Below, in pieces: positions 10,720-61,653 of a stretch of 61,741 nucleotides of DNA. The position numbers and the translations under genes were made by a program. Position 1 is the first letter of the stretch. Each line of letters starts with the position of its first letter. The notes beneath the pieces were generated by a model. That model worked only from the letters and a program-made list of their open reading frames with translations. It had not been told where the DNA came from and searched no databases. The DNA is from Bacteroidaceae bacterium (lineage in GTDB: Bacteria > Bacteroidota > Bacteroidia > Bacteroidales > Bacteroidaceae), in NCBI GenBank assembly GCA_017940565.1, contig JAGAYH010000015.1:1-61741 (forward strand), read 5' to 3'.

Positions 10720-10782
10720 ACCAAATCCGCTTTCGTTGCGACTAAATCCGTTTTCGTTCTTCACAAATCCGTTTTCGTCAGT
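10720..10782 (+). repeat. 63-bp triplet array B1 (three 21-base units)
   Basis: Three consecutive 21-base units start at 10720, 10741 and 10762. Their 17-base cores are ACCAAATCCGCTTTCGT, ACTAAATCCGTTTTCGT and CACAAATCCGTTTTCGT, each followed by a 4-base spacer. The array lies in the 293-base gap between the DUF4091 gene and ffh, about 60 bases upstream of the ffh -33 region. The same 63-bp layout recurs nine more times in the window. Confidence 0.85.
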
Positions 10783-10839
10783 TTGGTATTAGTTACTCCC
10801 ACCCGGAACAGGCCTGAGACGAAAACAAGTTTTCTTTTC

Positions 10840-10870
10840 TTGCCTTTTCACTCGTTTATTCGTAACTTTG
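10840..10870 (+). promoter_or_regulatory. Promoter of ffh (TTGC / TAACTTTG)
   Basis: TTGC at 10840-10843 is followed after 19 bases by TAACTTTG at 10863-10870, close to the Bacteroidetes consensus. It lies 20 bases before the ffh ATG and supports that start over longer in-frame extensions that run back through repeat B1. Confidence 0.6.
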
Positions 10871-10890
10871 CACTCCATAAAGAAAACGAT

Positions 10891-12228
10891 ATGTTTGAAA
10901 ATCTTAGCGAAAGACTTGAACGGTCGTTCAAGATACTCAAAGGTGAGGGCAAAATCACCGAAATCAACGTTGCCGAAACACTGAAGGATATCCGTCGCGC
11001 CCTGCTCGACGCCGACGTGAACTATAAGGTAGCCAAGACCTTCACCGACGAGGTGAAGCAGAAGGCTTTGGGCCAAAATGTGCTGACAGCCGTGAAGCCC
11101 GGGCAGTTGCTCGTGAAAATCGTTCACGACGAACTGGCGCGCCTTATGGGCAGCACGGCCAGCGACCTGGTGTTGGAAAGCCGCCCGTCGGTCATTCTGA
11201 TGTCAGGCCTGCAGGGCTCGGGTAAGACCACCTTCTCGGGCAAACTGGCCAACTGGCAGAAGACGAAGAAAAACCGCAAGCCTCTGCTGGTGGCCTGCGA
11301 CGTCTATCGTCCGGCTGCCATCGAACAGCTCAAGGTGGTGGGCGAGAGCGTCGGTGTGGACGTTTACACCGAGCCGGGCAACATGAATCCCGTGGAGATA
11401 GCCCAGAACGCCCTACGCGAAGCCAAGCAGAAGGAATACAATCTGGTCATCGTCGACACCGCCGGACGCCTGGCCGTGGACGAGCAGATGATGAACGAGA
11501 TAGCCAATCTGAAAGAAGCGCTCCACCCCGACGAAACGCTCTTCGTGGTGGACTCGATGACGGGTCAGGACGCTGTGAACACGGCGAAGGAATTTAACGA
11601 GCGGCTCGACTTCAGCGGTATCGTGCTGACAAAGCTCGACGGCGACACCCGCGGCGGTGCGGCCCTGAGCATACGCACCGTGGTGGACAAACCCATCAAG
11701 TTCATCGGCACGGGCGAGAAGATGGACGCCCTCGACGTGTTCCACCCCGAACGCATGGCCGACCGCATCCTGGGCATGGGCGACATCGTTTCCCTCGTGG
11801 AGCGCGCCCAGGAACAATATGACGAGGAGGAGGCCCGCCGCCTGCAGAAGAAGATTGCCAAAAACAAGTTTGACTTCAACGACTTCCTGAAACAGATTCA
11901 GCAAATCAAGAAGATGGGCAACATCAAGGAGCTGGCCTCCATGATACCCGGTGTGGGCAAGACCCTGAAGGACGTGGACATCAATGACGACGCTTTCAAA
12001 AGCATCGAGGCCATCATCTACTCCATGACACCCTACGAACGCGCCAACCCGGCCTGTCTCAACCAAAGCCGGCGCACACGCATTGCCGCCGGGTCGGGCA
12101 CGAAACTGCAGGAGGTGAACCGCATCTTAAAACAGTTTGAACAGATGCGAAAAATGATGCGCATGATGACCGACAGCAAGATGAACACCATGCTCAACAA
12201 CATGAAGAACATGAGCATGCCCAGGTAA
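10891..12228 (+). CDS. ffh: Signal recognition particle protein Ffh
   Basis: A 445-residue GTPase that binds 4.5S RNA and signal sequences and targets nascent membrane proteins to FtsY. The N domain starts MFENLSERLERSFK. The G domain has G1 GLQGSGKTTF, the DVYRPAA motif, G3 VDTAGRL and G4 TKLDGDTRGG. The C-terminal M domain is methionine-rich and ends NNMKNMSMPR. An upstream in-frame extension exists but passes through repeat B1 and the promoter, so the ATG at 10891 was chosen; it gives the normal family length. folD follows after 40 bases on the same strand. Confidence 0.97.
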   Translation: MFENLSERLERSFKILKGEGKITEINVAETLKDIRRALLDADVNYKVAKTFTDEVKQKALGQNVLTAVKPGQLLVKIVHDELARLMGSTASDLVLESRPSVILMSGLQGSGKTTFSGKLANWQKTKKNRKPLLVACDVYRPAAIEQLKVVGESVGVDVYTEPGNMNPVEIAQNALREAKQKEYNLVIVDTAGRLAVDEQMMNEIANLKEALHPDETLFVVDSMTGQDAVNTAKEFNERLDFSGIVLTKLDGDTRGGAALSIRTVVDKPIKFIGTGEKMDALDVFHPERMADRILGMGDIVSLVERAQEQYDEEEARRLQKKIAKNKFDFNDFLKQIQQIKKMGNIKELASMIPGVGKTLKDVDINDDAFKSIEAIIYSMTPYERANPACLNQSRRTRIAAGSGTKLQEVNRILKQFEQMRKMMRMMTDSKMNTMLNNMKNMSMPR

Positions 12229-12268
12229 ATTTGAGATTTGACAATAATAAAACCATAAGGACAACGAT

Positions 12269-13147
12269 ATGCAACTGATAGACGGCAAGGCCACGGCAAT
12301 GGCCATAAAACAAGAGATTGCGCAACGCGTGAAGGAAATCGTCGCCAACGGCGGCAAGCAACCCCACCTGGCCGCCATTCTGGTGGGCCACGACGGCGGC
12401 AGCGAGACCTATGTGGCTGCCAAGGTGAAGGCCTGCGGCGAGTGCGGCTTCAAGTCGAGCCTCATCCGCTTCGATAGCGACGTGACCGAAGAGGACCTGC
12501 TCAACAAGGTGCAGGAACTCAACGATGACCCCGACGTGGACGGTTTCATCGTGCAACTGCCCCTGCCCCGCCACATCAGCGAGCAGAAAGTGATCGAAGC
12601 CATTGACTACCGCAAGGACGTGGACGGCTTCCACCCCATCAACGTGGGCCGCATGGCCATCGGCCTGCCCGCCTTCATCAGCGCCACGCCACGCGGCATC
12701 CTGGAACTGCTCCGCCGCTACAACATCGAGACTTCCGGCAAGAAATGCGTCATCCTTGGCCGCAGCAACATCGTGGGCAAACCCATGGCCCAACTGATGA
12801 TGCAGAAACAGTTTGGCGATGCCACCGTCACCGTGTGCCACAGCCGCTCAAAGACGTTGAAGGAAGAATGTCAGGAAGCCGACATCATCATCGCTGCCAT
12901 CGGTCAGCCGGGCTTCGTCACCGCCGACATGGTGAAGGAAGGTGCCACCGTGATCGATGTCGGCACCACCCGCGTGCCCGATGCCACGAAGAAGAGCGGT
13001 TTCCGCCTCTCCGGCGACGTAAAGTTTGACGAAGTAGCGCCCAAGTGCGCCTACATCACCCCCGTACCCGGCGGCGTAGGTCCCATGACCATCTGTTCAC
13101 TGATGCAGAACACCCTGCTCGCCGGAGAACGAGCCATATATAAATAA
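12269..13147 (+). CDS. folD: Bifunctional methylenetetrahydrofolate dehydrogenase/cyclohydrolase
   Basis: A 292-residue FolD, which interconverts 5,10-methylene- and 10-formyl-tetrahydrofolate with NADP in the cytoplasm. The substrate site has the catalytic lysine in [11 protein letters not shown] and the motif [10 protein letters not shown]. The cofactor domain has [13 protein letters not shown] and the C-terminal signature [10 protein letters not shown]. The length is normal. AAGGAC lies about 8 bases before the ATG. It probably shares the ffh transcript and ends at palindrome A3. Confidence 0.97.
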
Positions 13148-13190
13148 AGGTTTTCTGCCAAGATTTTCACCCTGGAATCGGACGTTTCGT

Positions 13191-13302
13191 AAATGCATGG
13201 TTTTCATCAGGTGTCAAATTAGGCAAATTAGAAACGGCGTCTCAAAATTTTGAGACGCCGTTTCTGCGGTCCGAAGTCCCACTTCTGGGCCCCAAAATCA
13301 GA
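13191..13302. repeat. Long palindrome element A3, probable two-way terminator
   Basis: A perfect 34-base palindrome at 13231-13264 consists of GAAACGGCGTCTCAAAA and its reverse complement. Two 21-base units follow (CCGAAGTCCCACTT and CCCCAAAATCAGAG) and resemble those at 1701-1742. The element lies between convergent folD and the lpxA-like gene, and its right edge supplies the TGA stop of the latter. The bases before the palindrome (TTTTCATCAGGTGTC) resemble those before the copy near 20480. Confidence 0.75.
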
Positions 13303-20454: not shown

Positions 20455-20600
20455 CATCGGGTCTCGGATATACTGAGACAGAAGCGGCGCCTCGTCATTT
20501 TGAAACGCCGTTTCTGCGCGACGAAGTCCCATTTGTGAACGCCGAAATCCGGCCTCCGCGGATGGTTTGTCAGGATTTTTTGAATTTTTGGGAAACAAAA
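20455..20600. repeat. Degenerate palindrome element A4
   Basis: This copy has GCGGCGCCTCGTCATTTTG facing AAACGCCGTTTCTGCGCG, so the palindrome is imperfect. The following 21-base units (ACGAAGTCCCATTTGT and ACGCCGAAATCCGGCCTCC) match the copy at 1701-1742 closely, and the collinear similarity continues to about 20593. Unlike the other copies it lies between two genes on the same strand. The rest of the 19933-20659 gap holds the leucine-rich-repeat stub and a terminator; 20283-20454 shows nothing recognisable. Confidence 0.65.
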
Positions 20601-26552: not shown

Positions 26553-26615
26553 ACTAACTCCGTTTTCGGACGCACTAAATCGGATTTAGGAAAAACCGAC
26601 TGCGTTTTCGTTCCG
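26553..26615. repeat. 63-bp triplet array B2
   Basis: Three 21-base units start at 26553, 26574 and 26595, with cores ACTAACTCCGTTTTCGG, ACTAAATCGGATTTAGG and ACCGACTGCGTTTTCGT. The middle unit is in the opposite sense to the outer two at the CCG/CGG centre. It lies in the 26182-26756 gap, which otherwise holds tRNA-His, its promoter and the CotH promoter. Confidence 0.8.
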
Positions 26616-26756: not shown

Positions 26757-29700
26757 GTGATGAAGAAAGCGCTCTGCTGGCTATTGCTATTCGTTGCCGG
26801 GGTGTCTGCGGTGCAGGCAGCCGACGACGGTGGGCTCGACATGGGTTACAACACGTCGTGGACAGCCCGCATATTCTATAATCCGGGGCGCGGTTTCGAC
26901 AACAGTTGGCCGCAACTGTGCCAAGCCCGCGAGGGAGATGTCTATACGGTGAGTCTGCCTTATGCCACGGCGCAGCAGTGGCAGGCGCAGGTGCAGTTTA
27001 AGACCCCCGTGACGCTGATGAAGATGCACACCTACCGCCTGACGCTGGTAGCCAAAACGCTGTCGGGCGACCCCTGCCCCATGACGGTGGTGCTGGCCGA
27101 AAACGAGAACGACCAAGTCAGGGCGGCCTACCTGGAGACGGTGGCCAACGGCGACACGGTGGTGATAGACGACATCGCGGGGACGGACATCGCCGACATG
27201 AAGCTGTGGTTCGACTTCGGCGGCAACAGCCAGGGGACCAAGGTGGAGATTTCGGGCATTTCGCTGGTGGACAAAAACAATTCGGTGCCGGAACGGTGGG
27301 TGGGCTCGGTATATTACACCCAGTGCTACTATGCCCCCGGCGGACAGCGCACGGCCGACCCCGACATTGAGGGCACGGTGCCGTCGCTGGCCTGGACGTT
27401 GCCCGATTTCAAGGACTCGGCGTGGGAAAAGGCCGAGATGCCCATCGGCAACAGCGGTTTCATCGACGTCGTGAGAACCATTTGGCAGGGCAGTCAATAC
27501 AACAACTACTGGATTCGCCGCAACTTTACGCTGGACGAGGTAAAGAGCACCTCACGCTATATGCTCGATGTGCTCCACGACGACACGTATGCCATCTACG
27601 TGAACGGCCATCTCATCGATGAGGCCGACGACTGGACCATCGGCAAGGAAGCCATCCACTTTGAAATACCCTACTTGTTCCTCAAGCAAGGCAACAACGT
27701 GATAGCCGTGTATCAGCAGCAGAATGTGGGCGGCAAATTCTTCGACTGCGGACTGACCGTCACTCCCGACTATTACGATGAATCTGACGATGTCAATCCG
27801 GCTGAGGCCCTTGTGGCCAACGAAATCCAAGTGGCCAACATCGACCGCTTCATCGACCACTCGTTCAACTACGGTGCCTGGTTGGAACTATACAACACCA
27901 CCGACAAGACCGTGAATCTGGGCGGGCTCTACCTCAGCGACGACCCGGACTACCCTACCAAGTACATGATACCCATGAACTACGGCACGGTGAAGCCCCA
28001 TGGCTATGCCACCCTGTTTTTCGACCACAACGCCGCCGACGGCACTTACGGCCCTACGGCCAACAAGCAGGTGCGCTTCAATCTGGACGATGCCGGCGGC
28101 ACCATCTATGTGGCAGACAACGCAGGCAAAGTATTCATCGAACAAGACTATCCTCCCTCCGTGTCACGCTGCTCCTATGCCCGCCAAACCGACGGCACGG
28201 GCGAATGGGCACTCACCGGAGAACCTACACCCGGCGCTTCAAACAACAGCAGCGACTTCTCTGACGAACGCCTTGACGCCCCGCAACCCGACACCGATTC
28301 GCGGCTGTTCATTGAACCCTTTACCGTCAACGTGACCATTCCCGAGGGAGCCACCCTCAGATACACCACCGACGGCTCCACTCCCGTCGAGTCAAGTCCG
28401 GTAAGCGCCGACGGCGTGTTCCAAATCAGCAGCACCACCCCCCTGCGCCTGCGGCTGTTCCAAAAAGGTTGCCTGCCCAGCCCCGTGACCACCCGCAGCT
28501 ACATCCGGCGAGACAGGGACTACTATCTGCCCATACTGTCCATCAACACCGCGCACGACAACCTCTACGGCGACTCCATCGGTGTCTATTGCCAGGGAGT
28601 GAACGGGGTGACGGGCCATGGGAACAATTCGGTGCGCAACAACCTGAACATGGACTGGGTGCGGCCTGTCAACATGGAATACATCACCGCTGACAACCGG
28701 ATGGTCATCAACCAGGAAGCCGAATTCGGCATTATCGGCGGTTGGAGCCGACTCTATGCCCCCAGTTCGTTCCGACTGAAGGCCAAGGCTATCTACGAAG
28801 GGAACAAATCGTTCAACTACCCGTTCTTCCACACCAAGCCCTACAACAAATACAAGGAACTGCTGGTGCGCAACGGTGGCAACGACAACGATTCCAAAGC
28901 CCACGGACGCATCAAAGACGCCATCATCCAGCAAACGCTCTCGACGAGCGGCGTCTATGTGGATTGCCAGGCCCTGCAACCCACCCACGTCTTCTTCAAC
29001 GGCCAGTACATCGGCATGCTCAACCTGCGCGACCCAAGCAACAAGTACTTCGCCACGGCCAACTACGGCTACGACAAGGACTTCATGGACGCCTTCGAAT
29101 ACTCTAACGGCTATTTCCAGAAAGCCGGTGACAACAAAGCATACAACGAATGGGTCAGTCTGGCAGCCAATGCTTCCGACGAAGCCACCTACGATGTATT
29201 GCGCGACCGGGTGGACATGGACGAATACATCAACCACGCCGCGGCCATGACATATATCGGTTCCTCCGACTGGATTTGCAACAATAACAACCTGAAAGGC
29301 TTCCGTTCGCGTCCCGACGGCAAGTTCCACATTGTGCTCTTCGACGTGGACTGGGGCTTCAAGAACGCCCAGGGCCTCTCCACCCTTATGGGCAGCAACG
29401 CCAACGACTACATCCGCACGTTCAAGAACATGATGAAAAACGCCCGCTTCAAGCGCCAGTTCATCGACAGCTATTGCCTCATGCACGGCAGTGTATTCAC
29501 CCCGGAGCGCTCCAAAGCCGTCGGCGACAGCCTGGCCCGCCTCTTTGAACCTGCTCTGGCCTTTGAGGGAAAGCAGCCGTGGACATCGTACAACGAACTC
29601 GTGCCAAACATGACTGACGAAAGCCGGCGTGAACAGCACATTCAGGCTCTGCGAAACACCATGGGGCTTGGCCAGGGCATGCACGTGAAGCTCTCGGCCA

Positions 29701-31141: not shown

Positions 31142-31204
31142 TACAAATCGGACTTGTAATTCACGAAAACGGATTTAGTCTGCACTAAATCCGTTTTCGT
31201 TTTT
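31142..31204. repeat. 63-bp triplet array B3
   Basis: Three 21-base units start at 31142, 31163 and 31184. The second core (ACGAAAACGGATTTAGT) and third core (ACTAAATCCGTTTTCGT) are exact reverse complements separated by CTGC, so the array contains a 17-bp hairpin. It fills the gap between convergent cotH and cbiB, and its last base touches the cbiB stop codon. Confidence 0.85.
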
Positions 31205-36659: not shown

Positions 36660-37710
36660 GACTGAAATTGTCCATTTCGTTAAACATTTTGACGGCCGAA
36701 ACCACGATGGGGTATGCACAAAGGGCCCCGGTGCCCTCGCCAAGCCGCATGTCCAGGTGCAGCAGCGGTTCTGCGCCCATGGCATCGAGCATTAGCTTGT
36801 GGCCGCCTTCGTCGCCCTGATGGCCAAAGACGGCATAGTCCTTCACGGCCGCGTCCATCTGTGAAGCAGCCAGCATACAGGCCGTCATGATGAAACCATC
36901 GACCAGGACAATCATCTTCTCCTCGGCCGCATGCAGCATGGCACCGATGGCAGCCGCCATTTCGAAGCCCGCAAAGTGGCGTATCGTATCCGTCACCCCG
37001 GTATAGTCGCCGGCATGGTCACGCTTCAGGGCCTCAAAACGCGCGAGAGAGTCTTCAAGCACGGACAACTTGTGACGTATGCCGGCATCGCCCAGGCCAC
37101 TGCCCGCCCCCACACATTTGACCAGGGGAATGGCGGTGAACAAATGCATCAGAATGCTCGACGGCGAGGTATTTCCCACCCCCATTTCGCCAATTCCTAT
37201 CACATTGCATCCCTCGGCCCGGCAGGCATCCACCTGTTCCGCGCCCACTTGCAGGGCCTGAGCCCACTCCTGACGGCTCATGGCCGCTTCGTAGCGAAAA
37301 TTGCGCGTGCCAAACCCTATCTTGCGCGACACAAAACGGATATCGTCCGCACTATCTCCGATATAGTCCGCACTATCTCCGATATAGTCCACCCCGACAT
37401 CCACCACGCGCAGTTGGAAGCCATGTTGCCGGCACAGTACATTGACCCCGCCGCCACCGAGGCAGTAGTTACGCATCTGTTGTCTCGTCACTTCGCGCGG
37501 CGAAGCCGAAACACCCTCACGCTCAATCCCGTGGTCGCCGCCGAAAAGCAGATGACAAGGACGGATAAGCCGGGGATGGAGCGAATGTTGTATCAAAGCC
37601 ACTTGCATAGCCAGCGTTTCCAGACGGCCGAGCGAACCTTTGGGCTTGTTCAGGTTGTCGAGCTTGTCTTGTATGGCCGGCATCAAATTTCTGTCAACAG
37701 GTTGTATCAT
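36634..37710 (-). CDS. cobT: Nicotinate-nucleotide-dimethylbenzimidazole phosphoribosyltransferase with repeat insert
   Basis: A 358-residue CobT, which makes alpha-ribazole 5'-phosphate from a lower-ligand base. Family motifs are NKPKGSLGRLE, FGGDHGIEREGVSA and the catalytic glutamate in RLGEGTGALCA. Between VVDVGVDY and RKIGFGTRNF intact relatives carry a short loop. Here the tandem IGDSADYIGDSADDIRF is encoded by the 63-bp array C1. The insert keeps the frame and lies in a surface loop by its position, so the enzyme may still work. Downstream cobS overlaps by 26 bases. Confidence 0.93.
   Translation of the reverse strand: MIQPVDRNLMPAIQDKLDNLNKPKGSLGRLETLAMQVALIQHSLHPRLIRPCHLLFGGDHGIEREGVSASPREVTRQQMRNYCLGGGGVNVLCRQHGFQLRVVDVGVDYIGDSADYIGDSADDIRFVSRKIGFGTRNFRYEAAMSRQEWAQALQVGAEQVDACRAEGCNVIGIGEMGVGNTSPSSILMHLFTAIPLVKCVGAGSGLGDAGIRHKLSVLEDSLARFEALKRDHAGDYTGVTDTIRHFAGFEMAAAIGAMLHAAEEKMIVLVDGFIMTACMLAASQMDAAVKDYAVFGHQGDEGGHKLMLDAMGAEPLLHLDMRLGEGTGALCAYPIVVSAVKMFNEMDNFSHANITKYF
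37330..37392. repeat. 63-bp triplet array C1 inside cobT
   Basis: Three 21-base units start at 37330, 37351 and 37372. Two of them share the same 17-base core ACTATCTCCGATATAGT; the first is more diverged (ACAAAACGGATATCGT). Translated in the cobT frame they give the tandem YIGDSAD. Confidence 0.85.
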
Positions 37711-39753: not shown

Positions 39754-41553
39754 TTATCTGTTTTTAATCAGTTTCACTTCCAGTTCGCCCGAGGGGAACA
39801 CCTGGCGGCAATGCATCAGACACAGGCTGCGCAGTGACTCGAAAAACGCCGGCGGCATCAGTTCCCACAACTCGCGGGCGAGAGTTATTTTATTGACAAT
39901 GGCTTCAGCGTGTTCCACTCCGGCCGATGCGGCCACCCGGGTGAGGAACGTCTTGTTCATAGTGACTTGGTGGGAATGTGTGTTCAGATGTCCTTCGGCC
40001 AGTTTCACGGCTTTGCCTATCATGATGCCCACTATCACACGACGGAAGCCCAATGACTCGCAACGACGCAGGGCATCGCCGATAAAATTGCCGTAATGCA
40101 CCACGCGCAATTCGGGATTGTCGGCCCGAAGGGCGTCTTCTCCCTGTTTGCCCGAGACCAGGCCCACCGCATCGCAGCCTATGGCCCTGGCAACCTGCAG
40201 TTCACGGCCGATGCTCTCGATGAACGCTTCATTGGAAAGGGGATACACGATGCCCGAGGTGCCTATGATGCTGATTCCGTCCCTTACGCCCACCCGCTCG
40301 TTGAAGGTGCGCCGGGCTATCTCCCGCCCGTTCTCAACGAAAACGGATATATTCGCGTCCATATCCGATATAGATTTCACTATCTCCGACATCATCCGGC
40401 GCGGAACGGGATTGATAGCCGCCTCTCCCACTTTCAGGCCCAGGCCGGGCAGGGTGACCACGCCCACACCCTTGCCCCGGAGGAAACGGATGCCTTCATG
40501 CCGGCCGGGTATCAGTTCCACACGGGCCGTAATGCGGCATCCGCGCGTCACGTCAGGGTCGTCGCTGAAATCTTTCAGCACACTGGCTTCAGCCCATCGG
40601 TGCCCGCCTTCCTCAACCGTGCGGACACTGTCGACGGCAACGGTTATGACTTCCGAATCGGGCAGTTCCACGTCCACTTCGTCATACTCTACGCCTTCCA
40701 TCAGGGCCAGTGTGGCGGCCTTGACGGCAGCTGTGGCAACGGTGCCCGTAGTCAGTCCCGTGTGGAGCGGGAAAAAGTCCGGCACCGCCCGCTCTATGGC
40801 GCGACGGAGCCCGTGCATGCCGGCAACGGTCTGACAACAGTCCTTGCAAGAGAAATAGTCCAAATAGTTTGGAGCCTTCAGCACGAATATCTGCAAACCT
40901 AATTCCGATGCAGCCCTGACTTTGGCTTCAAAACCACCGCTGTCGCCACTCTCTTTCGTCACTATGGCATCGCACCGGACCTCTCTCATCAGCGCCAGTT
41001 CCTCCTCGAATGTGGGCAAGGCACCGGACGGATTGTAAAAGACGAGCTTGCTTTCAGGGAAACCCCACGCTGCCGCACGCGCCAGGCTCTCCTGGCGCGG
41101 CAGAATGCGGAAAAACGTTTCGTGACTCCGCCAATAGTCTTTCAATTTCCCGATAGTGTTCACGCCGGAGAGAGCCAGAAGCCGACGCGGGCCACTATGG
41201 TTCAACTGATCCACAAGTTCATCGTAGCTGGAACACCATACGATGTCCCGGGACGACTGGTTCGACACGTCATAACGCCTCTGGTAGCGCACAACGGGCA
41301 TGCCCGAGGCGGCAACACTGCGGTGCAACGCCTCGGCAAAGGGATGCGAGGCATCTACAATGAGCCGCACGCCCCGGTCTTTGCAAAAACGGATGATATC
41401 GTCGGACGTCATGGCACCGACAAGGCGCTTGCCATGACGCATGGGCACGTCCTGCATGTCACTCAACGTGGAATAATAAAACTCTTTCCCAGATTGATCA
41501 CACACCTGGGCAGCCACGCGCCCTTCTGTCGTACCTCCGAAAACCAATATCAT
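39754..41553 (-). CDS. CbiJ-CbiD fusion (cobalt-precorrin-6A reductase / C1-methyltransferase)
   Basis: A 599-residue bifunctional corrin-ring enzyme. Residues 1-250 are the CbiJ/CobK reductase (VFGGTTEGRVAAQVCD, LIVDASHPFAEALH). From about residue 255 the CbiD methyltransferase begins at HTGLTTGTVATAAVKAAT and continues with VELPDSEVITVAV, GIVYPLSNEAFIESIGREL and GKAVKLAEGHLNTHS. Within the CbiD part the stretch SEIVKSISDMDANISVFVE is encoded by the 63-bp array C2, without a clear change in length. It overlaps the CbiG-CbiF gene by 4 bases. Confidence 0.92.
   Translation of the reverse strand: MILVFGGTTEGRVAAQVCDQSGKEFYYSTLSDMQDVPMRHGKRLVGAMTSDDIIRFCKDRGVRLIVDASHPFAEALHRSVAASGMPVVRYQRRYDVSNQSSRDIVWCSSYDELVDQLNHSGPRRLLALSGVNTIGKLKDYWRSHETFFRILPRQESLARAAAWGFPESKLVFYNPSGALPTFEEELALMREVRCDAIVTKESGDSGGFEAKVRAASELGLQIFVLKAPNYLDYFSCKDCCQTVAGMHGLRRAIERAVPDFFPLHTGLTTGTVATAAVKAATLALMEGVEYDEVDVELPDSEVITVAVDSVRTVEEGGHRWAEASVLKDFSDDPDVTRGCRITARVELIPGRHEGIRFLRGKGVGVVTLPGLGLKVGEAAINPVPRRMMSEIVKSISDMDANISVFVENGREIARRTFNERVGVRDGISIIGTSGIVYPLSNEAFIESIGRELQVARAIGCDAVGLVSGKQGEDALRADNPELRVVHYGNFIGDALRRCESLGFRRVIVGIMIGKAVKLAEGHLNTHSHQVTMNKTFLTRVAASAGVEHAEAIVNKITLARELWELMPPAFFESLRSLCLMHCRQVFPSGELEVKLIKNR
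40337..40399. repeat. 63-bp triplet array C2 inside the CbiJ-CbiD gene
   Basis: Three 21-base units start at 40337, 40358 and 40379, with cores ACGAAAACGGATATATT, TCCATATCCGATATAGA and ACTATCTCCGACATC. The match is weaker than in other arrays. The protein aligns with CbiD relatives without an obvious insertion, so part of the match could be chance. Confidence 0.55.
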
Positions 41554-44443: not shown

Positions 44444-44506
44444 TTCTATATCGGATTTGGTTCGTTCTATATCGGATTTGGTTTCCACTATATCGGACTT
44501 CGTTCG
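44444..44506. repeat. 63-bp triplet array C3 before cobL
   Basis: Three 21-base units start at 44444, 44465 and 44486, with cores TTCTATATCGGATTTGG (twice) and CACTATATCGGACTTCG. It fills most of the 97-base gap between the CbiH-CbiC gene and cobL. Read in the cobL frame on the minus strand it encodes a heptad KSDIERT-type repeat. Confidence 0.85.
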
Positions 44507-44537
44507 CACGAAACGTGTCCCACCGCTTTTTCAGCGG

Positions 44538-45954: not shown

Positions 45955-48123
45955 TCAATACTTTAATCTGACGCTCACGATGAAGGAACGCCCGGGACTG
46001 ATGGTGGAAAAGTTGGCATTCCAGGGCGAAGTGTCGCGCTGGTTAAACACATTCTCGACTCCCAGGCCGGGTTCCACGACAAAGTGCGCCATCGAAACGG
46101 TGTGGCGCGTCGTAAGGTCCCACTGGCTGTAACCGTCGGCGTATCCGTAGGTACTACTGTAGCGACGGCTCTGGATGTGTCCGTTGAGAGTGACGTTAAG
46201 GTGGTAATTGCTCCAGTCATGATCCCACGAGGCAAAGACATTATAGACATTGCGCACGCTTTTGTCCACAGGCGACTCCGTAAACAGATACTGCTGCGTT
46301 TTCTTGTCAAGACTCCGCGTCTTGGCTTTGCTGTCGGTGTAAGCATAGCTCCCGCTAAGGGTAAAACCACAGGGTAGCAGGAGTTTCAGCGAGACATTGA
46401 CGCCACAGAGCGAGGCACGGTCGATGTTGTCCCGCTTCCGTATGGTTGTCCATCCCTCGGAATAGAGCGAAGAAAGGTGACTGTCGCCATCGATTTCGGC
46501 CTGCGTCAGCGTACGGTAGTTTATCATGTCGCGAATCTTGTTGACAAAACCGCTGACGGAGGCTGTCATCCACTTGTTGCCGTACTCGAGATTGAGGTTG
46601 TAGAAGTTGTTCTTCTCCGGTTTCAGTGACGGGTTGTACAAGGTGTAGCGTGCGGTGGTCTTGGCCTGGTCTGTGGCATACAACTGCGAGAGCGAGGGGG
46701 TGCGATAGCCGCCGGCGTAGCTCGTTCTCACGCGAAATCCGCCGACATGGTAGAATAGGCCCACGTTAGGTGTGAAGGCCGAGCCGAAGTGTTCGTTGTG
46801 GGCCAGACGGAAAGCCACAACGGCTTCCAGACCTCCCGCAATCTTTATTTCATCTTGGGCAAAGACATTGTAGGTGGCTGTCGTTTCAAAACGTATGTTG
46901 TCGCTTTGGCTGTGCAGGCTCTCCTGTATCAGTTGCAAGCCGGCAGAGAGTTTGTTCCAGCCGGCCAGTCGGAAGATGCCTCTCAGAGTTTCATCGGTGT
47001 AGTGGGTACGTTTGCGCGTTTCGTCGTAGGCCTCTTTGTCCGCAGTCTGCCAATAGTCGTATTTTGACGAGAAATTGTCACTGTAAACGTCCAGATAGAT
47101 GTAAGCACGGCGGTTGGGTGCCCATCGGGCTCCGGCCCCGTAGGTATAGGACTTGTGGTAGAGGTCGTAGGTGTAGGCCTGGCGCTCGCTATAGGTATAG
47201 TTTTTCTCGCCGGTTGCGGCATTCTTGGCGGTTTTCTGGGTGAAATAAGTGGCCTTCTGCGGTCTGTCGGTGCGGTAGTCATAGTAAGAGCCTCGCAGGT
47301 AGGCCGACCAGCGTTCGTTGAATTTCCATTCGAGTTTTTCTGTGATATTGTCGCTTTTGAATGCGGTTGACATGGGGCGGCCGGTCAGTTTCAGCACCTC
47401 GCTGCCGCCTTCATCGAAGGCCTGATAATGGTTCACCTGCCAGTTGTCGGCTTGTTGGTGGCCGTAGGAGGTGTGGCTGGAGAATTTGCCGGCATTTACG
47501 TCCAGGTTAATCTCTTCCTGCAGCCGCCCGTGGTTCATCAGTTTGGTATAAGCCGAAGCCGTGAGAGGCTCATGGCTGTCGTCGGTAATGATATTGATGA
47601 CCCCGGCGATGGCTTCGCTGCCGTAGAGGGCACTGGCTGCGCCGCTGAAGATTTCAACCCGCTTGACGTTGGCCATGTTGATGCGGTTCCAGCGGTCGTC
47701 GCCGCTGATGCGCTTGCCGTTCTCGAGGATGACGACATAGTCGTCGCTCACACCGTTGACATTGACAAAGGTGCCCATGCCGTTGGTGTGGGTCGTGACG
47801 TTGGTCGTCAGCCTGGACAAGGCTTCCTGCAGGTTGGAGGCATGGGTGTCCTGCAAATCTTTCGACGAGATGACTTTTACGGCCACCGGCGAGTTGTCTG
47901 CGCGGTGGTAGGTGCCCGTTCCCGTCACCACCACTGGATTAAGTACGATTGACTTCAGTGAATCGGCTCCACGGGAAACCTTCTGCTCCTGTCCGAAGGC
48001 CGTCTGGCTGCATGCGAGACAGGCGGCCAGAAGGACTATGTCCCATTTGGAGCGGACTATGTCCGATTTAGACAAGAACAAATCGGAGATGGAATGGCGT
48101 TTTGCCGGGTTGTTGATTGTCAT
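45955..48123 (-). CDS. TonB-dependent receptor with repeat-encoded N-terminus
   Basis: A 722-residue outer-membrane receptor. The plug domain begins near residue 60 (VLNPVVVTGTGTYHRADN, VKRVEIFSGAASALYGSEAI) and the barrel ends in VSVRLKY. In the cobalamin operon it probably imports a corrinoid or its precursor. The first 30 residues are unusual: SDLFLSKSDIVRSKWDIV is encoded by the 63-bp array C4 and runs straight into the signal peptide core IVLLAACLACSQTAFG. No later start codon precedes the signal core, so the repeat appears to provide its N-region. Confidence 0.88.
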   Translation of the reverse strand: MTINNPAKRHSISDLFLSKSDIVRSKWDIVLLAACLACSQTAFGQEQKVSRGADSLKSIVLNPVVVTGTGTYHRADNSPVAVKVISSKDLQDTHASNLQEALSRLTTNVTTHTNGMGTFVNVNGVSDDYVVILENGKRISGDDRWNRINMANVKRVEIFSGAASALYGSEAIAGVINIITDDSHEPLTASAYTKLMNHGRLQEEINLDVNAGKFSSHTSYGHQQADNWQVNHYQAFDEGGSEVLKLTGRPMSTAFKSDNITEKLEWKFNERWSAYLRGSYYDYRTDRPQKATYFTQKTAKNAATGEKNYTYSERQAYTYDLYHKSYTYGAGARWAPNRRAYIYLDVYSDNFSSKYDYWQTADKEAYDETRKRTHYTDETLRGIFRLAGWNKLSAGLQLIQESLHSQSDNIRFETTATYNVFAQDEIKIAGGLEAVVAFRLAHNEHFGSAFTPNVGLFYHVGGFRVRTSYAGGYRTPSLSQLYATDQAKTTARYTLYNPSLKPEKNNFYNLNLEYGNKWMTASVSGFVNKIRDMINYRTLTQAEIDGDSHLSSLYSEGWTTIRKRDNIDRASLCGVNVSLKLLLPCGFTLSGSYAYTDSKAKTRSLDKKTQQYLFTESPVDKSVRNVYNVFASWDHDWSNYHLNVTLNGHIQSRRYSSTYGYADGYSQWDLTTRHTVSMAHFVVEPGLGVENVFNQRDTSPWNANFSTISPGRSFIVSVRLKY
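48033..48095. repeat. 63-bp triplet array C4 at the start of the second TonB receptor
   Basis: Three 21-base units start at 48033, 48054 and 48075, with cores GGACTATGTCCCATTTG, GGACTATGTCCGATTTA and AGAACAAATCGGAGATG. It lies inside the coding region, from about codon 10 to codon 30. Confidence 0.75.
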
Positions 48124-49930: not shown

Positions 49931-51001
49931 CTATTCTTCTTCTGCAAACATCTCGGCAGCCTCAACCGTGTGCTTCTTCCAGATGGCACGGAAGTTGGCA
50001 TAATCGCCCAGGCCTTTGAGAATACAGTTGTTGGCTGTGTTAGCATCGTTGCCGTCGTAGGCACACTTGAAACCTTCTCCCTGGAAGAATTCGCGCCAAC
50101 TGTCTCCTTCGTTCTCAATGCCCGACATGTCGTTATGGGCATGGTCGCCGGCAATGCACATCAGAGCGTGCAGCGTAACGGTTGTCCCGGCCTTGACGGA
50201 CTGGTCCTTCATGCGGCCGTAGAGATCATCAAGCAGGTTGCCCTCCATGTCAACGGTGGCAACAAAGTAGTTCTTGTTGATTTTCTGCAAAGCCGTTTCG
50301 AGCTGTGTGTAGCGCACGTTTCCATTGCCGTAGTTATAGCCTTCGGGGTTGCCATGACCAAGGAAAGCCATCACATTGTCACCCTGCACATACTTGCTGA
50401 AATTGGAGTTGATTGCTTTGGCCACAGCCTCCACGTCTTCTTCTTCAGCCATCAGCGGGCCGCCGACAAACACTTTGACACCGCTTTCCAGGTAGGTTTC
50501 GTCAAGGTCACCATAGATATTGTTCTTAAAGTCCTTGATATAGTTGTCACGCAGACGCAGGAATTCTTCACCCGGAATCACGTGCAACGACTGCACACGC
50601 ACCTCTTCGTACTTCTGGCGTCCAATGGCCTCGAGCCAGAAGTTGGGAGCGTAGAAGTCTTGGCTGGCATAGTGCTCGCCGGCACGGCTTTTGTTGATGC
50701 AAATGGCTGATGTGAACGAGAAGTAGACATCATAATCCTTGAAGGCAGCGTCTTTTTCATAGTCGGCCACGATGCCTTTGAACGTGTTGTGAGCATTTTC
50801 CCATGTAGAACCGAAGGCTACCAGCAGAAGGGCTTTCTTGTTGCCGCTGCTGGCTTTCTTGCTTTTCACTTGACTCTCTACTTGCGAAAGATACTTTGTG
50901 AAGTTCTCGCTTTGTGAGTCATCATCGTCAGAACAAGCCACGAAACTTGCCGACATCACCATGGCCATCATAGCCACCATAAGAATTTTAATCTTCTTCA
51001 T
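49931..51001 (-). CDS. cbiK: Exported CbiK-like sirohydrochlorin cobaltochelatase lipoprotein
   Basis: A 356-residue protein with a lipoprotein signal (MVAMMAMVMSASFVAC). From about residue 57 it matches CbiK, which inserts cobalt into sirohydrochlorin. The core starts KKALLLVAFGSTWENAHNTF, with the histidine motifs AFLGHGNPEGYNYGNG and MCIAGDHAHNDM. After the lipidated cysteine comes SDDDD, which matches the Bacteroides lipoprotein surface-export signal, so it may sit on the cell surface. The related IhtB/FetB of Porphyromonas gingivalis is a surface heme-binding lipoprotein. It overlaps the first TonB receptor gene by 14 bases. Confidence 0.85.
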   Translation of the reverse strand: MKKIKILMVAMMAMVMSASFVACSDDDDSQSENFTKYLSQVESQVKSKKASSGNKKALLLVAFGSTWENAHNTFKGIVADYEKDAAFKDYDVYFSFTSAICINKSRAGEHYASQDFYAPNFWLEAIGRQKYEEVRVQSLHVIPGEEFLRLRDNYIKDFKNNIYGDLDETYLESGVKVFVGGPLMAEEEDVEAVAKAINSNFSKYVQGDNVMAFLGHGNPEGYNYGNGNVRYTQLETALQKINKNYFVATVDMEGNLLDDLYGRMKDQSVKAGTTVTLHALMCIAGDHAHNDMSGIENEGDSWREFFQGEGFKCAYDGNDANTANNCILKGLGDYANFRAIWKKHTVEAAEMFAEEE

Positions 51002-53114
51002 TGTAATTGTGTTTTAGGTTTGAGTTATTGTTATTGTTTTTTAGGGTTTTCCCTTTGTGGAATCGGATTACGAGCGATGCAAAGAGGGTGGTTCCGGGCG
51101 TTGTTGTGCCCAGATGCCGCAGATGTGGTGTACGGTCCACATAATTGAAGATATTGTCGATACCGGCCTCCAGACGATAGGTTGTGTTCCTGGCATGACC
51201 CAAATCGTGTGTGGTCGAAAGTCGCCACAGCTGGTATGCCTTGCCGTTGCCGTAGTTTTCATAGTGGCGTGTCGATGACGTGCGGCCATACAGGCCTATG
51301 CCCAGTCGGTAGCTTTGGGTGAAACGGTGGTTCCAGGTGGCAAACACGTTGCTCTTGTGATGGGCCGTACCGTCAATGGTCAGACGTTGCAGCCGCTCGG
51401 TTTCCTCATCGTACACCCTGCCCTTGGCCTGCAGATAGCTATAACCGCCGCCCAGCGTTATTTCACGTGTCACATTCCATTTCAGGTTCACGTCGATGCC
51501 CGTGGTATAGGCTTTCTCCAGATTTTTATATTCTCTCACGAAGGCCGGGTCGTATCTGAGTATGAGCTCCCCGGGTGCCTGACTGGCCGGAATGGTCACC
51601 AGATTGATCATGTCGTGCACCCTGTTGTAGTATCCCGTGATGCTCACACTAAAGTTTGATACGGCGTACTCACCGTTGAGTGAAACGTAGTTGCTCACCT
51701 GCGGCTTCAGGCTGGTGTTGCCCAGAAAGAGGCGCACGCCGCCCATGTCGCGCACATAGCGGTAGTGCATTTCCTTCAGTGTGGGCGATTTGAAGCCTTG
51801 TGCCCACGACGCACGCAGTTTATAGTTGCCCAAGCTCAGCATGGACGACAATTTGGGTGTAAGATGCACGCCAAACTGTTCGTTATGATCCACGCGCAAG
51901 CCGGCAGTCACGTTCAAGCGTTTCAACGGATTCCATTCGTCCTGTGCATAGAGTGCCTGCGTCCAGTCAGTGGCACGCCGGTTGTCGATACGCAGGGGTG
52001 CTTTCAGCCAGTCGTGGCGAAAGTCGTAGCCAACCGTCATCCGGTGATGTCCGGACAGTTCTGACACGCCCTTCAGCTGCACCATCGTGCGCCGTTGGTC
52101 TGCCTGCAGGGCGCGGTCGCCATCGTAGTATATATAATAAGGATTGGTTTTGTCGCCAGTTTCCACCAACCAGCCTTCATCAGAAGTGTAGTCGTAGAAA
52201 TAGCCGTGACGGTTCCAGCTGACGTCGGCCGTCAGGTGATGGCGTTCTTTCAGGTGCCACGCCCATCCTGCCGACAGGGCGGCATCGTCGTAGGAGAGGT
52301 CGTAACCATGCACGTCGGCCACGGCATACTTGCCGTTGGGACGGAAGATGCGCTTGTGATACCACATGCCGTCGGCATAGACCTCCATGCCTTCGGCCGG
52401 CTGCCATGTCAGGCGCTGCGACAGTTGATAGAGCCGGTTACGGTTCACCGTTTTGTTGCGCGAGTCGGTAATGACGCGGCCGCCGATTTGCGCAGGGTCT
52501 TCCACGCCCGTGTTTTGCCAGCCGTCGCTGCGGCGGTAGTGGAAATTCGTAAAGCTCTGCACCCTTCCGAAGGTCAGTCCCACGGCGTTGTGCTGCCGCA
52601 GGTCGCCATAGCTGCCGCCACGCGTCCCGTTTTCCAGCAGCCACCCCTTGGCGGGTTTGCGGGTAATGATATTGATGACGCCGGCGATGGCGTCTGAGCC
52701 GTAGAGTGCCGACGAGGCGCCCTTGACTATCTCGATGCGCTCTATACGTGCCGGGTCGATGAGCCCCAGGTCGTTCTGGCCGCCATTGTCGCCGTGCAGG
52801 CGCTTGCCGTCAACGAGAATGAGGATGTAGGAGTTGCCCAGCCCGTTCATTTGCATCTGGCTGCCCATGTCGTCTTCGCTGAAGGCGAAACTGGCCGTCA
52901 GTCCGCCGAGTATTTCCTCGAGACTGCGGCCGCCATATTGCTGCAGTTCCCGCCGTGTGACCACTTCGGTCTGTACGGGAACATCTTTCAGCCGGTGCTG
53001 AGTACCCGTAGCCGTGACAACCACTTCGGGGAGCGTGTCATACTTTTCCTGGCCGCGGGCAGCCACCATAACGAGCACCACAAGGGCGCACCATGTCAGT
53101 CTTTTAATCTGCAT
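50988..53114 (-). CDS. TonB-dependent receptor behind the cobalamin riboswitch (BtuB-like)
   Basis: A 708-residue outer-membrane receptor. Signal peptide LTWCALVVLVMVAARG is followed by a short TonB-box region (LPEVVVTATGTQHRLKDVPV), the plug with IERIEIVKGASSALYGSDAI, and a 22-strand barrel ending near TTLFASLVIRF. As first gene after an adenosylcobalamin riboswitch it most likely imports vitamin B12 or related corrinoids. Its partners are the CbiK-like lipoprotein and BtuF-like protein that follow. No BtuG-type surface protein is present. Confidence 0.9.
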   Translation of the reverse strand: MQIKRLTWCALVVLVMVAARGQEKYDTLPEVVVTATGTQHRLKDVPVQTEVVTRRELQQYGGRSLEEILGGLTASFAFSEDDMGSQMQMNGLGNSYILILVDGKRLHGDNGGQNDLGLIDPARIERIEIVKGASSALYGSDAIAGVINIITRKPAKGWLLENGTRGGSYGDLRQHNAVGLTFGRVQSFTNFHYRRSDGWQNTGVEDPAQIGGRVITDSRNKTVNRNRLYQLSQRLTWQPAEGMEVYADGMWYHKRIFRPNGKYAVADVHGYDLSYDDAALSAGWAWHLKERHHLTADVSWNRHGYFYDYTSDEGWLVETGDKTNPYYIYYDGDRALQADQRRTMVQLKGVSELSGHHRMTVGYDFRHDWLKAPLRIDNRRATDWTQALYAQDEWNPLKRLNVTAGLRVDHNEQFGVHLTPKLSSMLSLGNYKLRASWAQGFKSPTLKEMHYRYVRDMGGVRLFLGNTSLKPQVSNYVSLNGEYAVSNFSVSITGYYNRVHDMINLVTIPASQAPGELILRYDPAFVREYKNLEKAYTTGIDVNLKWNVTREITLGGGYSYLQAKGRVYDEETERLQRLTIDGTAHHKSNVFATWNHRFTQSYRLGIGLYGRTSSTRHYENYGNGKAYQLWRLSTTHDLGHARNTTYRLEAGIDNIFNYVDRTPHLRHLGTTTPGTTLFASLVIRFHKGKTLKNNNNNSNLKHNYNEED

Positions 53115-53143: not shown

Positions 53144-53154
53144 CATTAACTTCT

Positions 53155-53325
53155 TAAGAGACGTGGCAGGTCTTCTGGCTTTCCATAGGTCCAACGTCTT
53201 CCCACTTGCGCAGTGACTTTGGTGTTGAACCTTCAACAAAATGGATTACAGCTGCAGGAACAGCTCAGGTCTTTCACCTGATTCCCTTGAGCAGGGCGGC
53301 CGCAGGCCGCCTGTTACCAAATCTC
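53155..53325 (-). ncRNA. Cobalamin (adenosylcobalamin) riboswitch
   Basis: On the minus strand the conserved core appears in order: GGTAACAGGCGGCC, GGGAATCAGGTGAAAGACCT, GAGCTGTTCCTGCAGCTGTAA, and the B12 box AGCCAGAAGACCTGCC (complement of 53165-53180). These match the cobalamin riboswitch consensus, including the GCAGCTGTAA junction. It precedes the TonB receptor gene and, by layout, the whole operon down to cbiB. The exact ends are approximate. Confidence 0.93.
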
Positions 53326-53329
53326 AGTG

Positions 53330-53361
53330 CAAAAGTACACATTTCGGCCGAAACGGGCAAA
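53330..53361 (-). promoter_or_regulatory. Promoter of the cobalamin operon
   Basis: On the minus strand TTTG (complement of 53358-53361), 20 bases, then TACTTTTG (complement of 53330-53337) is a full Bacteroidetes promoter. The implied transcript start, about 7 bases downstream, falls at the 5' edge of the riboswitch. Confidence 0.75.
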
Positions 53362-53436: not shown

Positions 53437-53499
53437 AAGAAATCCGTTTTCGTCTGTTCTAAATCCGATTTAGTACGCACCAAATCCGATTTAGGCTCC
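53437..53499. repeat. 63-bp triplet array B4
   Basis: Three 21-base units start at 53437, 53458 and 53479, with cores AAGAAATCCGTTTTCGT, TCTAAATCCGATTTAGT and ACCAAATCCGATTTAGG. It lies about 75 bases upstream of the cobalamin promoter. The rest of the 53115-53637 gap is the riboswitch, its promoter and the terminator of the ROK gene. Confidence 0.85.
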
Positions 53500-56828: not shown

Positions 56829-56891
56829 ACGAAAACGCATTTGGAACGTACGAAAACGGAGTTAGTTTGGACTAACTCCGTTTTCGTTACC
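56829..56891. repeat. 63-bp triplet array B5
   Basis: Three 21-base units start at 56829, 56850 and 56871. The second core ACGAAAACGGAGTTAGT and third core ACTAACTCCGTTTTCGT are exact reverse complements across the 4-base spacer TTGG, giving a 17-bp hairpin. It lies in the 56744-57164 gap with the GH127 promoter and a terminator; 56892-57087 shows nothing recognisable. Confidence 0.85.
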
Positions 56892-58582: not shown

Positions 58583-58948
58583 TTACTGCTGTCCTCCTTC
58601 GGGAGCCGGAGCCTGCTGCTGGGCGTCACCGCCAGTGGGCATCGTGGTCGTAGCACCCTGTTGTGGAACGGTAGGCACGGGAGCCGTGGTGTTGGTCTTC
58701 ATCAGAACGGAAGAATCCACATTCTGCTTCGGCAGGGCATAGGCTGCGGCCACACTCAGAACGACCATAGCAATGGCCAGGCCCCAGGTGGTTTTCTCAA
58801 TGACATCGGTCGTCTTGCGCACACCCATAATCTGGTTGGACGAGGCAAAGCCAGATGCCAGGCCACCGCCTTTGGATTCCTGAATCAGTACAATCAGCGA
58901 CATCAGGATGGATGCCAATACAATCAAAATAATGATAATTGCGTACAT
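58583..58948 (-). CDS. secG: Preprotein translocase subunit SecG
   Basis: A 121-residue SecG, an accessory subunit of the SecYEG channel. Two membrane helices (YAIIIILIVLASILMSLIVLI and WGLAIAMVVLSVAAAYAL) flank the family loop QESKGGGLASGFASSNQIMG. The C-terminal 45 residues are a Pro/Gln/Thr-rich tail. It follows the TPR-like gene by 4 bases, the last gene of the sigma-54 activator - lptE - TPR - secG operon. Confidence 0.95.
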   Translation of the reverse strand: MYAIIIILIVLASILMSLIVLIQESKGGGLASGFASSNQIMGVRKTTDVIEKTTWGLAIAMVVLSVAAAYALPKQNVDSSVLMKTNTTAPVPTVPQQGATTTMPTGGDAQQQAPAPEGGQQ

Positions 58949-58952
58949 GCTT

Positions 58953-59711: not shown

Positions 59712-59719
59712 CCGTTTTT

Positions 59720-60232: not shown

Positions 60233-60297
60233 CAGACTACCGTTCTGTTTTATGAATTATGAAATAAGTTCTGAATTATGACTTATGAATAAAAAAA

Positions 60298-61479
60298 TCA
60301 CTCCAGCCCGTAATCCTTTATTTTGCGGTAGAGCGTGCGTTCCGAAATGCCCAATTCGGCCGCAGCCTCCTTGCGCACGCCGTGGTGACGCTCCAGGGCG
60401 CGGAGTATGGCATCCTTTTTCACGTCATCCATCGAGAGCAAGGTGCTTTCGGACTCCACATACTCGTCCACGGTCTGCGGCTCACCGGGCTCGTTCATCA
60501 CCTGCGCCGGCAGGGTCACGTGACTGTAGTTCATTCCGCCGTGGCCGTCGGCCAGGGTCTTCATCTGCTCACGCAGTTCGGTGATGTCCTTGCGCATGTC
60601 GAAGAGGATCTTGAAGAGCAACTCGCGCTCGTTCTGGTAGCTGTGGGCCGACTCCTGCCCTCCCACGGCCACCAGTTGGCGGCTGCCGCTGTCGCGCGGT
60701 ATGTAGCGTTCCAGTATTTCCGGCGTAATCTCGCGTTCCTCCGAAGTGACCGACATGTTCTCCGTCACGTTCTTCAGCTGGCGCACGTTGCCAGGCCAGC
60801 TGTAACCCATCAGATACTGCTTGGCCGGCTCCGTCAGCCTGACGGGCGGCATCTGGTATTTCTCGCTCATCATCAGGGCAAACTTGCGGAACAGCAGCAC
60901 AATGTCCTCCCCGCGGTCGCGCAGCGGCGGTACCGCCACGGGAATGGTGTTGAGACGGTAGTACAGGTCCTCGCGGAACTTGCCCTCGCTGATGGCCTTA
61001 GGTATGTTCAGATTGGTGGCGGCCACAATACGCACGTCGGTCTTGCGCACCTCGCTCGACCCCACGCGGATGTATTCGCCCGTCTCCAGCACGCGCAGCA
61101 GACGCGCCTGCGTCGACAGGGGCAGTTCGCCCACTTCGTCCAGGAAAAGCGTCCCGCCGTTGGCCGCGCCGAAGTAACCCTCGCGTGAATCGATGGCTCC
61201 GGTGAACGACCCCTTTTCGTGGCCGAACAGTTCCGAATCGATGGTGCCTTCGGGAATGCTACCGCAGTTCACGGCAAAATATTTCTTGCCCTTCCTGGCG
61301 CTGTGGTCGTGAATCAGACGGGGAATCACTTCCTTGCCCACGCCATTCTCGCCTGTGATGAGCACACTCAGGTCGGTGCGCGCCACCTGCAGGGACACGT
61401 CGAGCGCACGGTTCAGGCCCTCGTAGTTGCCCACGATGTCGTAGCGCTGTTTCACTTGACGCAATGCCGCTTCGTTCAT
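60298..61479 (-). CDS. Sigma-54-dependent transcriptional activator (no receiver domain)
   Basis: A 393-residue bacterial enhancer-binding protein. The AAA+ domain starts almost at the N-terminus: Walker A GENGVGKE, GSFTGA in place of the usual GAFTGA loop, Walker B GGTLFLDEVGELPL, and RFREDLYYRL-type sensor KFREDLYYRLN. The C-terminal Fis-type helix-turn-helix is GVRKEAAAELGISERTLYRK. The lack of a receiver or sensory domain means control must come from elsewhere. It is the first gene of the lptE/secG operon, behind promoter TTGG, 20 bases, TAATTTTG. Confidence 0.93.
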   Translation of the reverse strand: MNEAALRQVKQRYDIVGNYEGLNRALDVSLQVARTDLSVLITGENGVGKEVIPRLIHDHSARKGKKYFAVNCGSIPEGTIDSELFGHEKGSFTGAIDSREGYFGAANGGTLFLDEVGELPLSTQARLLRVLETGEYIRVGSSEVRKTDVRIVAATNLNIPKAISEGKFREDLYYRLNTIPVAVPPLRDRGEDIVLLFRKFALMMSEKYQMPPVRLTEPAKQYLMGYSWPGNVRQLKNVTENMSVTSEEREITPEILERYIPRDSGSRQLVAVGGQESAHSYQNERELLFKILFDMRKDITELREQMKTLADGHGGMNYSHVTLPAQVMNEPGEPQTVDEYVESESTLLSMDDVKKDAILRALERHHGVRKEAAAELGISERTLYRKIKDYGLE

Positions 61480-61500
61480 ACCTTATTTATATAGAGAATG

Positions 61501-61532
61501 CAAAATTACAACTTTTTTCTGATATATGCCAA
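61501..61532 (-). promoter_or_regulatory. Promoter of the sigma-54 activator operon
   Basis: On the minus strand TTGG (complement of 61529-61532), 20 bases, TAATTTTG (complement of 61501-61508), 21 bases before the start codon. Confidence 0.6.
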
Positions 61533-61590
61533 CTTCCGCCCATTTCTCCTCGGCAACGCCCGCATAAACTCCCGCCGGCGTCACAGACCG

Positions 61591-61653
61591 ACTATATCCG
61601 ATTCGCGTCCGTCCATATCCGATATAGGCCGTTCCGTATGCGTTTTGCTCATG
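61591..61653. repeat. 63-bp triplet array C5
   Basis: Three 21-base units start at 61591, 61612 and 61633, with cores ACTATATCCGATTCGCG, TCCATATCCGATATAGG and TCCGTATGCGTTTTGCT; the last is degenerate. It lies upstream of the sigma-54 activator promoter. Confidence 0.7.

Follow-up and report, generated by a model that had tools for sequence, protein, structure and literature searches.

Dispersed arrays of three units at a 21-base period in a Bacteroidaceae genome: candidate docking sites spaced along the chromosome

Several described systems come close to the element reported here, a 63-base array of three units that recurs along a 61,741-nucleotide contig of a Bacteroidaceae bacterium (assembly GCA_017940565.1, contig JAGAYH010000015.1; the whole contig is called the window below, and the genome G000). 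The nearest published relative that we found is BrickBuilt, a miniature inverted-repeat transposable element (MITE) of the Bacteroidales that is intergenic and built of tandem units of about two helical turns. According to the portion of the report available to us (PMC4596501), BrickBuilt has a 23-base unit, 19 places, and leader and tail ends; the G000 arrays lack these features and are far more numerous. Repetitive extragenic palindromes (REPs) and bacterial interspersed mosaic elements (BIMEs) resemble the arrays in having short palindrome-like units, hundreds of copies per genome and a mostly intergenic location. The arrays differ from them in their fixed three units at 21 bases, their even spacing, and the fact that no Y1 transposase was found in G000 or in its nearest relative, G015. 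REPs are described in part of one paper as carrying GTAG and CGTC tags (PMC3733652).

Two further systems resemble the arrays in geometry or in distribution. Lrp-type sites are spaced two or three helical turns apart (PMC2995911, as excerpted), and three Ss-LrpB dimers wrap DNA (PMC4046817, as excerpted); in Ss-LrpB operators, three interacting dimers occupy three near-palindromic sites along the same helix face, an arrangement with which a period of 21 agrees. Ss-LrpB binds 37 genomic regions according to the same excerpt (PMC4046817), compared with approximately one array per 5 kb here, evenly spaced and in two interchangeable wordings. DNA uptake sequences (DUS) and uptake signal sequences (USS) are genome-wide and even, occur as dialects, and accumulate in place, as far as the consulted parts of PMC1939737 and PMC3630211 describe them. 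Even spacing is also found here, but uptake sequences number thousands per genome, whereas the arrays are 63-base phased triples that occur about once per 5 kb and rarely in genes. Among open-licence papers on repeats and the nucleoid in Bacteroidales or Bacteroidetes, no title or abstract opening matched these arrays.

The window is contig C41 of G000, a draft genome of 1.79 Mb that is 63% complete. The best matches of its proteins in named genomes were to Bacteroidales, the first being a metagenome genome of the Bacteroidaceae (74% identity). The original prediction, made from the window alone, listed ten 63-base arrays with three units each at a 21-base period, and all ten were present as described. 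A 17-mer unit with up to three mismatches was found in G000 at 129 forward and 142 reverse places, compared with 0 and 2 for the same pattern read backwards. An iterated symmetric profile of the unit was used to scan 453 kb (the window and 20 other stretches), where unit matches up to 200 bases apart were separated by only 21 (80 pairs), 42 (30 pairs), or 63 bases (1 pair). These 453 kb contained 60 unit triples, and three shuffles contained none. A later survey covered 826 of the 1790 kb. In it, a motif-free triple-palindrome score gave 254 positions at period 21 and 1–26 at every other period in the range 19–29 (ten in all); one shuffled sequence gave none at period 21. The survey yielded 147 arrays, 96 of the wording first described (family A) and 51 of a second wording (family B); the comparison with shuffled sequence proposed in the original prediction returned 0. 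The arrays are a real, strongly non-random feature that is wider than first described.

The copy number had been described as always three. In family A, 90, 100, and 96% of arrays have a unit at positions 0, 1, and 2, respectively, and 0–3% have one at any of the four surrounding positions; the corresponding values for family B are 73, 100, and 86% and 0–2%. Because three positions are filled and the surrounding ones are nearly empty, the three-unit copy number is real in G000; in other species (G005, G008, and G037) the arrays have four or five units. A CRISPR array was ruled out, as the units vary, the spacers are only 4 bases long, and the three units stand at dispersed places. Searching Rfam at the gathering score gave two matches in the window, a cobalamin riboswitch and a tRNA, neither of them on an array.

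Family B is GAAACGSCGTTTC-like, with cores such as GAAACGGCGTTTC placed 21 bases apart, and has the same geometry as family A. Some A and B arrays begin exactly 63 bases apart (C9:10728/10791, C47:8311/8374). The core had been called near-palindromic. However, the similarity between the two arms of a family A unit (0.595) is below that of its half-sites paired at random (0.644, sd 0.008). Among 260 units, 113 arms carry the commonest half-site, ACGAAAAC. For the most part the family A unit combines two different half-sites (ACGAAAAC with ACTAAATC, ACTAACTC, or ACTATATC) and is not a true palindrome. Hairpin pairing is therefore not the feature kept in family A, and we rejected it as the target of selection; arms that are not kept complementary argue for half-sites read by a protein over a hairpin. 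In family B the likeness of the arms is also slightly below chance (0.619 versus 0.653, sd 0.013), and the dyad across the spacer is above it (0.710 versus 0.651, sd 0.014). Mean folding z-scores on the two strands were -5.1 and -5.2 for family B, -1.9 and -2.3 for family A, and -0.3 for random gaps (40 sequences each).

Other wordings and signals were also considered. A third wording, CAAATAAAGCCTTTATTTG, was seen as three units at 21 bases at L098:232, L098:17339, and L166:11162. A candidate family C (CAAATAAAG-like, three places) was left uncounted, its profile having slid into AT-rich sequence, and a profile D was merged with family A. An orientation signal like the FtsK-orienting polar sequences (KOPS) or Chi was set aside because unit orientations in family A, judged by inspection only, are mixed.

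We compared the places of arrays between G000 and G015, the draft genome (68% complete) of a sister species, whose aligned pieces average 79% identity. G015 has 55 arrays in 339 kb, of which a rough text rule labelled 35 as B and 20 as A. With G000 arrays scoring below 30 and G015 arrays scoring below 17 excluded, and with 111 of 137 G000 arrays and 29 of 55 G015 arrays unmappable, an array was found at the matching G015 place for 21 of the 26 mappable G000 arrays. In the reverse direction, 23 of 26 mappable G015 arrays had an array at the G000 place. Those without a place-matched G015 array were 37330, 40337, 44445 (a degenerate triple is there), C28:12156 (a G015 array maps to a neighbouring gap), and C28:98075. 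The family differs between the two genomes at 10 of the 21 matched places. As a control we used gaps between genes, 46 of 298 of which could be mapped (252 unmapped): a G015 array was present at 19 of 22 G000 array gaps versus 3 of 24 array-free gaps (p = 7e-7). Gaps with arrays are longer; when only gaps of at least 200 bases were counted, the figures were 14 of 15 versus 2 of 6 (p = 0.011). This control and the changes of family thus indicate that place is kept while wording changes.

The arrays are also evenly spaced, provided that both families are counted. Intervals between A and B arrays combined (n = 130) had a mean of 4955 bases and a coefficient of variation (CV) of 0.48, compared with 0.81 for family A alone and 0.85 for family B alone; leaving out the array-free parts of contigs C48 and C55 gave the same value (0.48, n = 129). 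Random length-weighted gaps gave a CV of 0.74 ± 0.06, with a minimum of 0.61 among 500 draws, and uniform placement gave 0.90. When family A was held in place and family B was dealt to random A-free gaps, the CV was 0.606 ± 0.052 and the observed value was reached in 0 of 1000 trials. A and B behave as a single spacing system. For the window by itself, the CV was 0.36 over 13 intervals. Fifteen consecutive arrays on contig C47 alternate perfectly between A and B. As a rule, alternation was dropped (85 of 134 neighbours are of the same class versus 83.3 expected within contigs), as was a tie of family A to AT-rich regions (local GC 0.546 versus 0.553, p = 0.2).

Most arrays lie between genes, as judged from our home-made gene calls. 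Family A arrays were placed in tandem (50), divergent (26), and convergent (12) gaps, with seven inside genes and one unclassified; family B arrays were placed in tandem (25), convergent (18), and divergent (6) gaps, with two unclassified. In tandem gaps, arrays of both families lie closer to the upstream stop, and the median distance to the start that follows is 158 bases for A and 236 for B. Three strong arrays lie deep in genes (37330, 40337, and C26:30395), in gap-free spans of 6.3–7.1 kb, and spans longer than 6 kb make up only 13 of 286. Two weak in-gene arrays were in spans of 6.0 and 2.2 kb. Arrays seem to enter genes chiefly for want of a nearby gap.

The two in-gene arrays that we compared residue by residue with G015, at 37330 and 40337, did not appear as clean 63-base insertions. 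Around 37330, gene 36634–37710 is longer by seven residues (21 bases) than in G015 and by nine residues than in G011, G013, and G018; because these outgroups lack the extra residues, G000 is the changed one. Around 40337, gene 39754–41553 equals its G015 counterpart in length and has substitutions throughout, and with G015 alone for comparison the direction of this change is putative. The latter gene (minus strand) is a CbiJ-CbiD fusion (precorrin-6A reductase and cobalt-precorrin-5B methyltransferase) in one frame, and the array interrupts neither part.

Beyond this pair of genomes, the period is found more widely than the wording. A two-unit pattern matched 204 places in G000, five in G015, and one in G011; the remaining 43 genomes searched had no match. 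With a sequence model of the array (R1, built from 46 of 60 arrays), scored on both strands over the best 150 candidates per genome, we found at least 154 matches in G000, at least 55 in G015, at least 10 in G013, at least 8 in G011, at least 4 in G008, and at least 2 in G009; the best 150 candidates of each of the other 13 genus genomes contained none. We also scanned sampled stretches of other species for period, in counts that include some simple and coding repeats (e.g., in G016 and G007). Clusters at period 21, compared with the highest of nine other periods, were 7/1 in G005, 11/3 in G016, 9/1 in G011, 9/1 in G008, 2/0 in G009, 2/1 in G004, 4/3 in G012, 1/1 in G013, 2/5 in G007, and 0/0 in G018. 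G037, from another genus of the family, had four clusters at period 21 versus two at the highest other period; it also has period-22 arrays with an ATGTTTT-type unit. In 80 loci from other Bacteroidota there was a weak excess, partly AT-rich noise (132 at period 21 versus 25–65 at six other periods); L002 holds a clear array and L006 probably another. Several sampled relatives have 21-base arrays that differ in wording and copy number.

Our preferred reading, which we hold as the leading possibility although at somewhat less than even confidence, is that the arrays, in phase with the helix, serve as docking sites for a chromosome-organising protein and are selected for their spacing. Each array would be a platform for a sequence-reading DNA-binding protein, probably as three dimers side by side. 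As the 21-base distance between units is two helical turns, the dimers would share one face of the helix and be able to touch. The chromosome would be selected for about one platform per 5 kb, at which a nucleoid-organising protein would bend, bridge, or insulate the DNA. Platforms would mostly occupy intergenic gaps and would occasionally be embedded in a gene, chiefly in stretches that lack a nearby gap. Their letters may drift between the tolerated forms A and B, with the three-site geometry and the place kept. We infer protein binding and the dimer stoichiometry from the two-turn phase, the fixed number, the evenness, and the retained place; selection for spacing and a role in the nucleoid are inferences from the spacing. 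Among the roles first suggested, a regulator or nucleoid-protein site is thus the one favoured, by helical phase, even spacing, shared places, and in-gene substitution, although the search for a protein gave no supported candidate.

Several observations weigh against docking by a chromosome-organising protein. No protein that binds the arrays was found, and Lrp/AsnC, the sole family tried, was without support. An Lrp-type gene is present once in 16 of 19 genus genomes, twice in one, and not in two. In the 4 of 17 genomes with a match in which the recognition helix was read (G000, G007, G010, and G013), this helix is nearly constant despite differing motifs; for this reason we rejected Lrp as the specificity factor and do not propose Lrp itself. 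It is also unclear how a single protein would read both wordings. Family B, with its strong folding (z about -5) and its preference for convergent gaps, has the look of a terminator. The ratio of A to B is uneven among contigs (0 of 5000 permutations were as uneven), and the weak in-gene array C48:122715 (score 24) is the one whose span is only 2.2 kb. Finally, C48:1–64k and C55:1–24k have no arrays. The latter carries EF-G and SecY genes, presumably a ribosomal-protein cluster, in a region where our gene calls apparently missed genes; in the former, seven proteins were tried, of which three had no Pfam match and four belonged to ordinary families. The array-free part of C48 also contains a called frame of 5592 residues (G000:C48:21853–38628). 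A family A array, L212:2214, lies an estimated 300 bases upstream of the sole Lrp-type gene found in G000, a proximity that may be coincidence at one array per 5 kb.

No rival explanation covers phase, evenness, and wording switches together, and uptake-driven accumulation comes nearest on the last two. Here, mutation and biased uptake (molecular drive) would lead to the in-place accumulation of arrays that an uptake receptor prefers; they would be even because one array per fragment suffices, and their wording would vary by species like uptake dialects. This explanation accommodates the in-place origin, the even spacing, and the species-specific wording, and it has precedents, in the parts of the papers available to us, for even spacing with molecular drive (PMC1939737) and for dialects (PMC3630211). 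A ComEC-type gene is present in 18 of 19 genus genomes; this says little, because ComEC is also common in control genomes (10 of 14, including E. coli). The uptake sequences described in the same source are about 10–12 bases long and are not phased triples (PMC3630211). The exact three-unit, two-turn geometry is left without explanation, and we judge this origin unlikely. If uptake bias were the cause, an array whose wording switches while its place is retained would still be unusual as an uptake signal. We know of no uptake signal in this phylum.

A short mobile repeat of the REP or MITE kind, copied by an unlinked enzyme and now mostly fixed and diverging, is a form of the small mobile element suggested in the original prediction, and we consider it similarly improbable. 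The many dispersed, mostly intergenic copies agree with it. Array ends with inverted repeats were seen in G008 (L120–L125) and G037 (L210, L233, L234), and the arrays of these genomes, with shared flanks, are MITE-like and resemble BrickBuilt, the MITE with a 23-base tandem repeat known from Porphyromonas gingivalis in the available part of its report (PMC4596501). The suggestion is weakened by the in-gene arrays, neither of which is a clean 63-base insertion, and by the places held in common with G015. Families A and B share one spacing and swap at matching places; target immunity could give evenness, but not wording switches in place. The proposed search for a REP-associated Y1 transposase (PF01797) gave none in G000 and none in G015, with a match in 4 of the 19 genus genomes. 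This absence is not final, because both are incomplete drafts.

The arrays could instead mark transcription boundaries, with B serving mainly as terminators and A mainly as upstream regulator sites, and would be even only because transcription units are similar in length. Consistent with this, family B is in convergent gaps more often than family A (18 of 49 versus 12 of 88 classified gap arrays; Fisher p = 0.0025) and folds strongly on both strands in a scoring of folding alone, neither of which is clear for family A, and 26 of the 88 family A gap arrays are divergent. The terminator source that had first been suggested would fit B in part, but not A, nor B at divergent gaps. Family B replaces family A at matching G015 places, divergent gaps included; the position near the upstream stop in tandem gaps is unlike that of usual operators; and random gaps are less even than the arrays. 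As an overall explanation this too seems unlikely. Least credible, and in our view very improbable, is a role in topology, either as phased A/T tracts that bend DNA or as gyrase sites placed at intervals for the relief of supercoils (gyrase is bound by BIMEs in E. coli). Both families do have AAA/TTT tracts, separated on average by about one turn, and supercoil relief would favour even spacing; the G005 arrays, however, have CGTTCCATNGNCTGGAACG-type units with no A tracts and yet keep the period.

Within the window, the array list of the original prediction was incomplete, as five family B arrays had been missed. These lie in convergent gaps at 1639..1701 (score 69), 8783..8845 (weaker, score 30), and 13229..13291 (score 49), in a tandem gap at 20479..20541 (score 39), and at 61674..61736 (score 52), the last being a 21-base tandem repeat 83 bases past the start of the neighbouring A array. 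The ten arrays listed at first are all of family A; eight of their starts were confirmed, and for two the best register is 1–2 bases later (44445 and 48035). Nine score 47–68, and the tenth, 61591..61653, is weak (score 30). Two are in divergent gaps (10720..10782, score 62; 26553..26615, score 56), one is in a convergent gap (31142..31204, score 59), and three are in tandem gaps (44445..44507, score 64, with the degenerate triple in G015; 53437..53499, score 68; 56829..56891, score 63). The array in gene 36634–37710 (minus strand) is at 37330..37392 (score 56) and that in the CbiJ-CbiD gene is at 40337..40399 (score 50). The array at 48035..48097 (score 47) is at the 5' end of gene 45955–48123 (minus strand) as called, and its G015 place has a family B array. 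The cobalamin riboswitch (RF00174, 74 bits; 53148–53336, minus strand) is directly upstream of a TonB-receptor gene (50988–53114, minus strand), and the family A array at 53437 comes after it. The open frame at 26757–31094 (plus strand, 1445 residues) had no NCBIfam match at E 1e-10.

These arrays bear on how a bacterial chromosome is divided up over distances of a few kilobases. To our knowledge, evenly spaced, sequence-coded chromosome anchors at this scale have not been established. The arrays are dispersed phased binding-site or REP-like arrays in a new form, and their putative role in chromosome spacing is testable. More tentatively than the docking sites themselves, we suggest that the chromosome may be measured in intervals of approximately 5 kb by three-dimer platforms, whose place and geometry would be selected and whose letters would be free among equivalent codes. 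A rule of spacing and phase, and not a sequence, would then be common to several species of the genus and to one or more further genera of the family. If the arrays are anchors, they would be countable sites, each with a spacing, a unit number, and a phase that could be altered.

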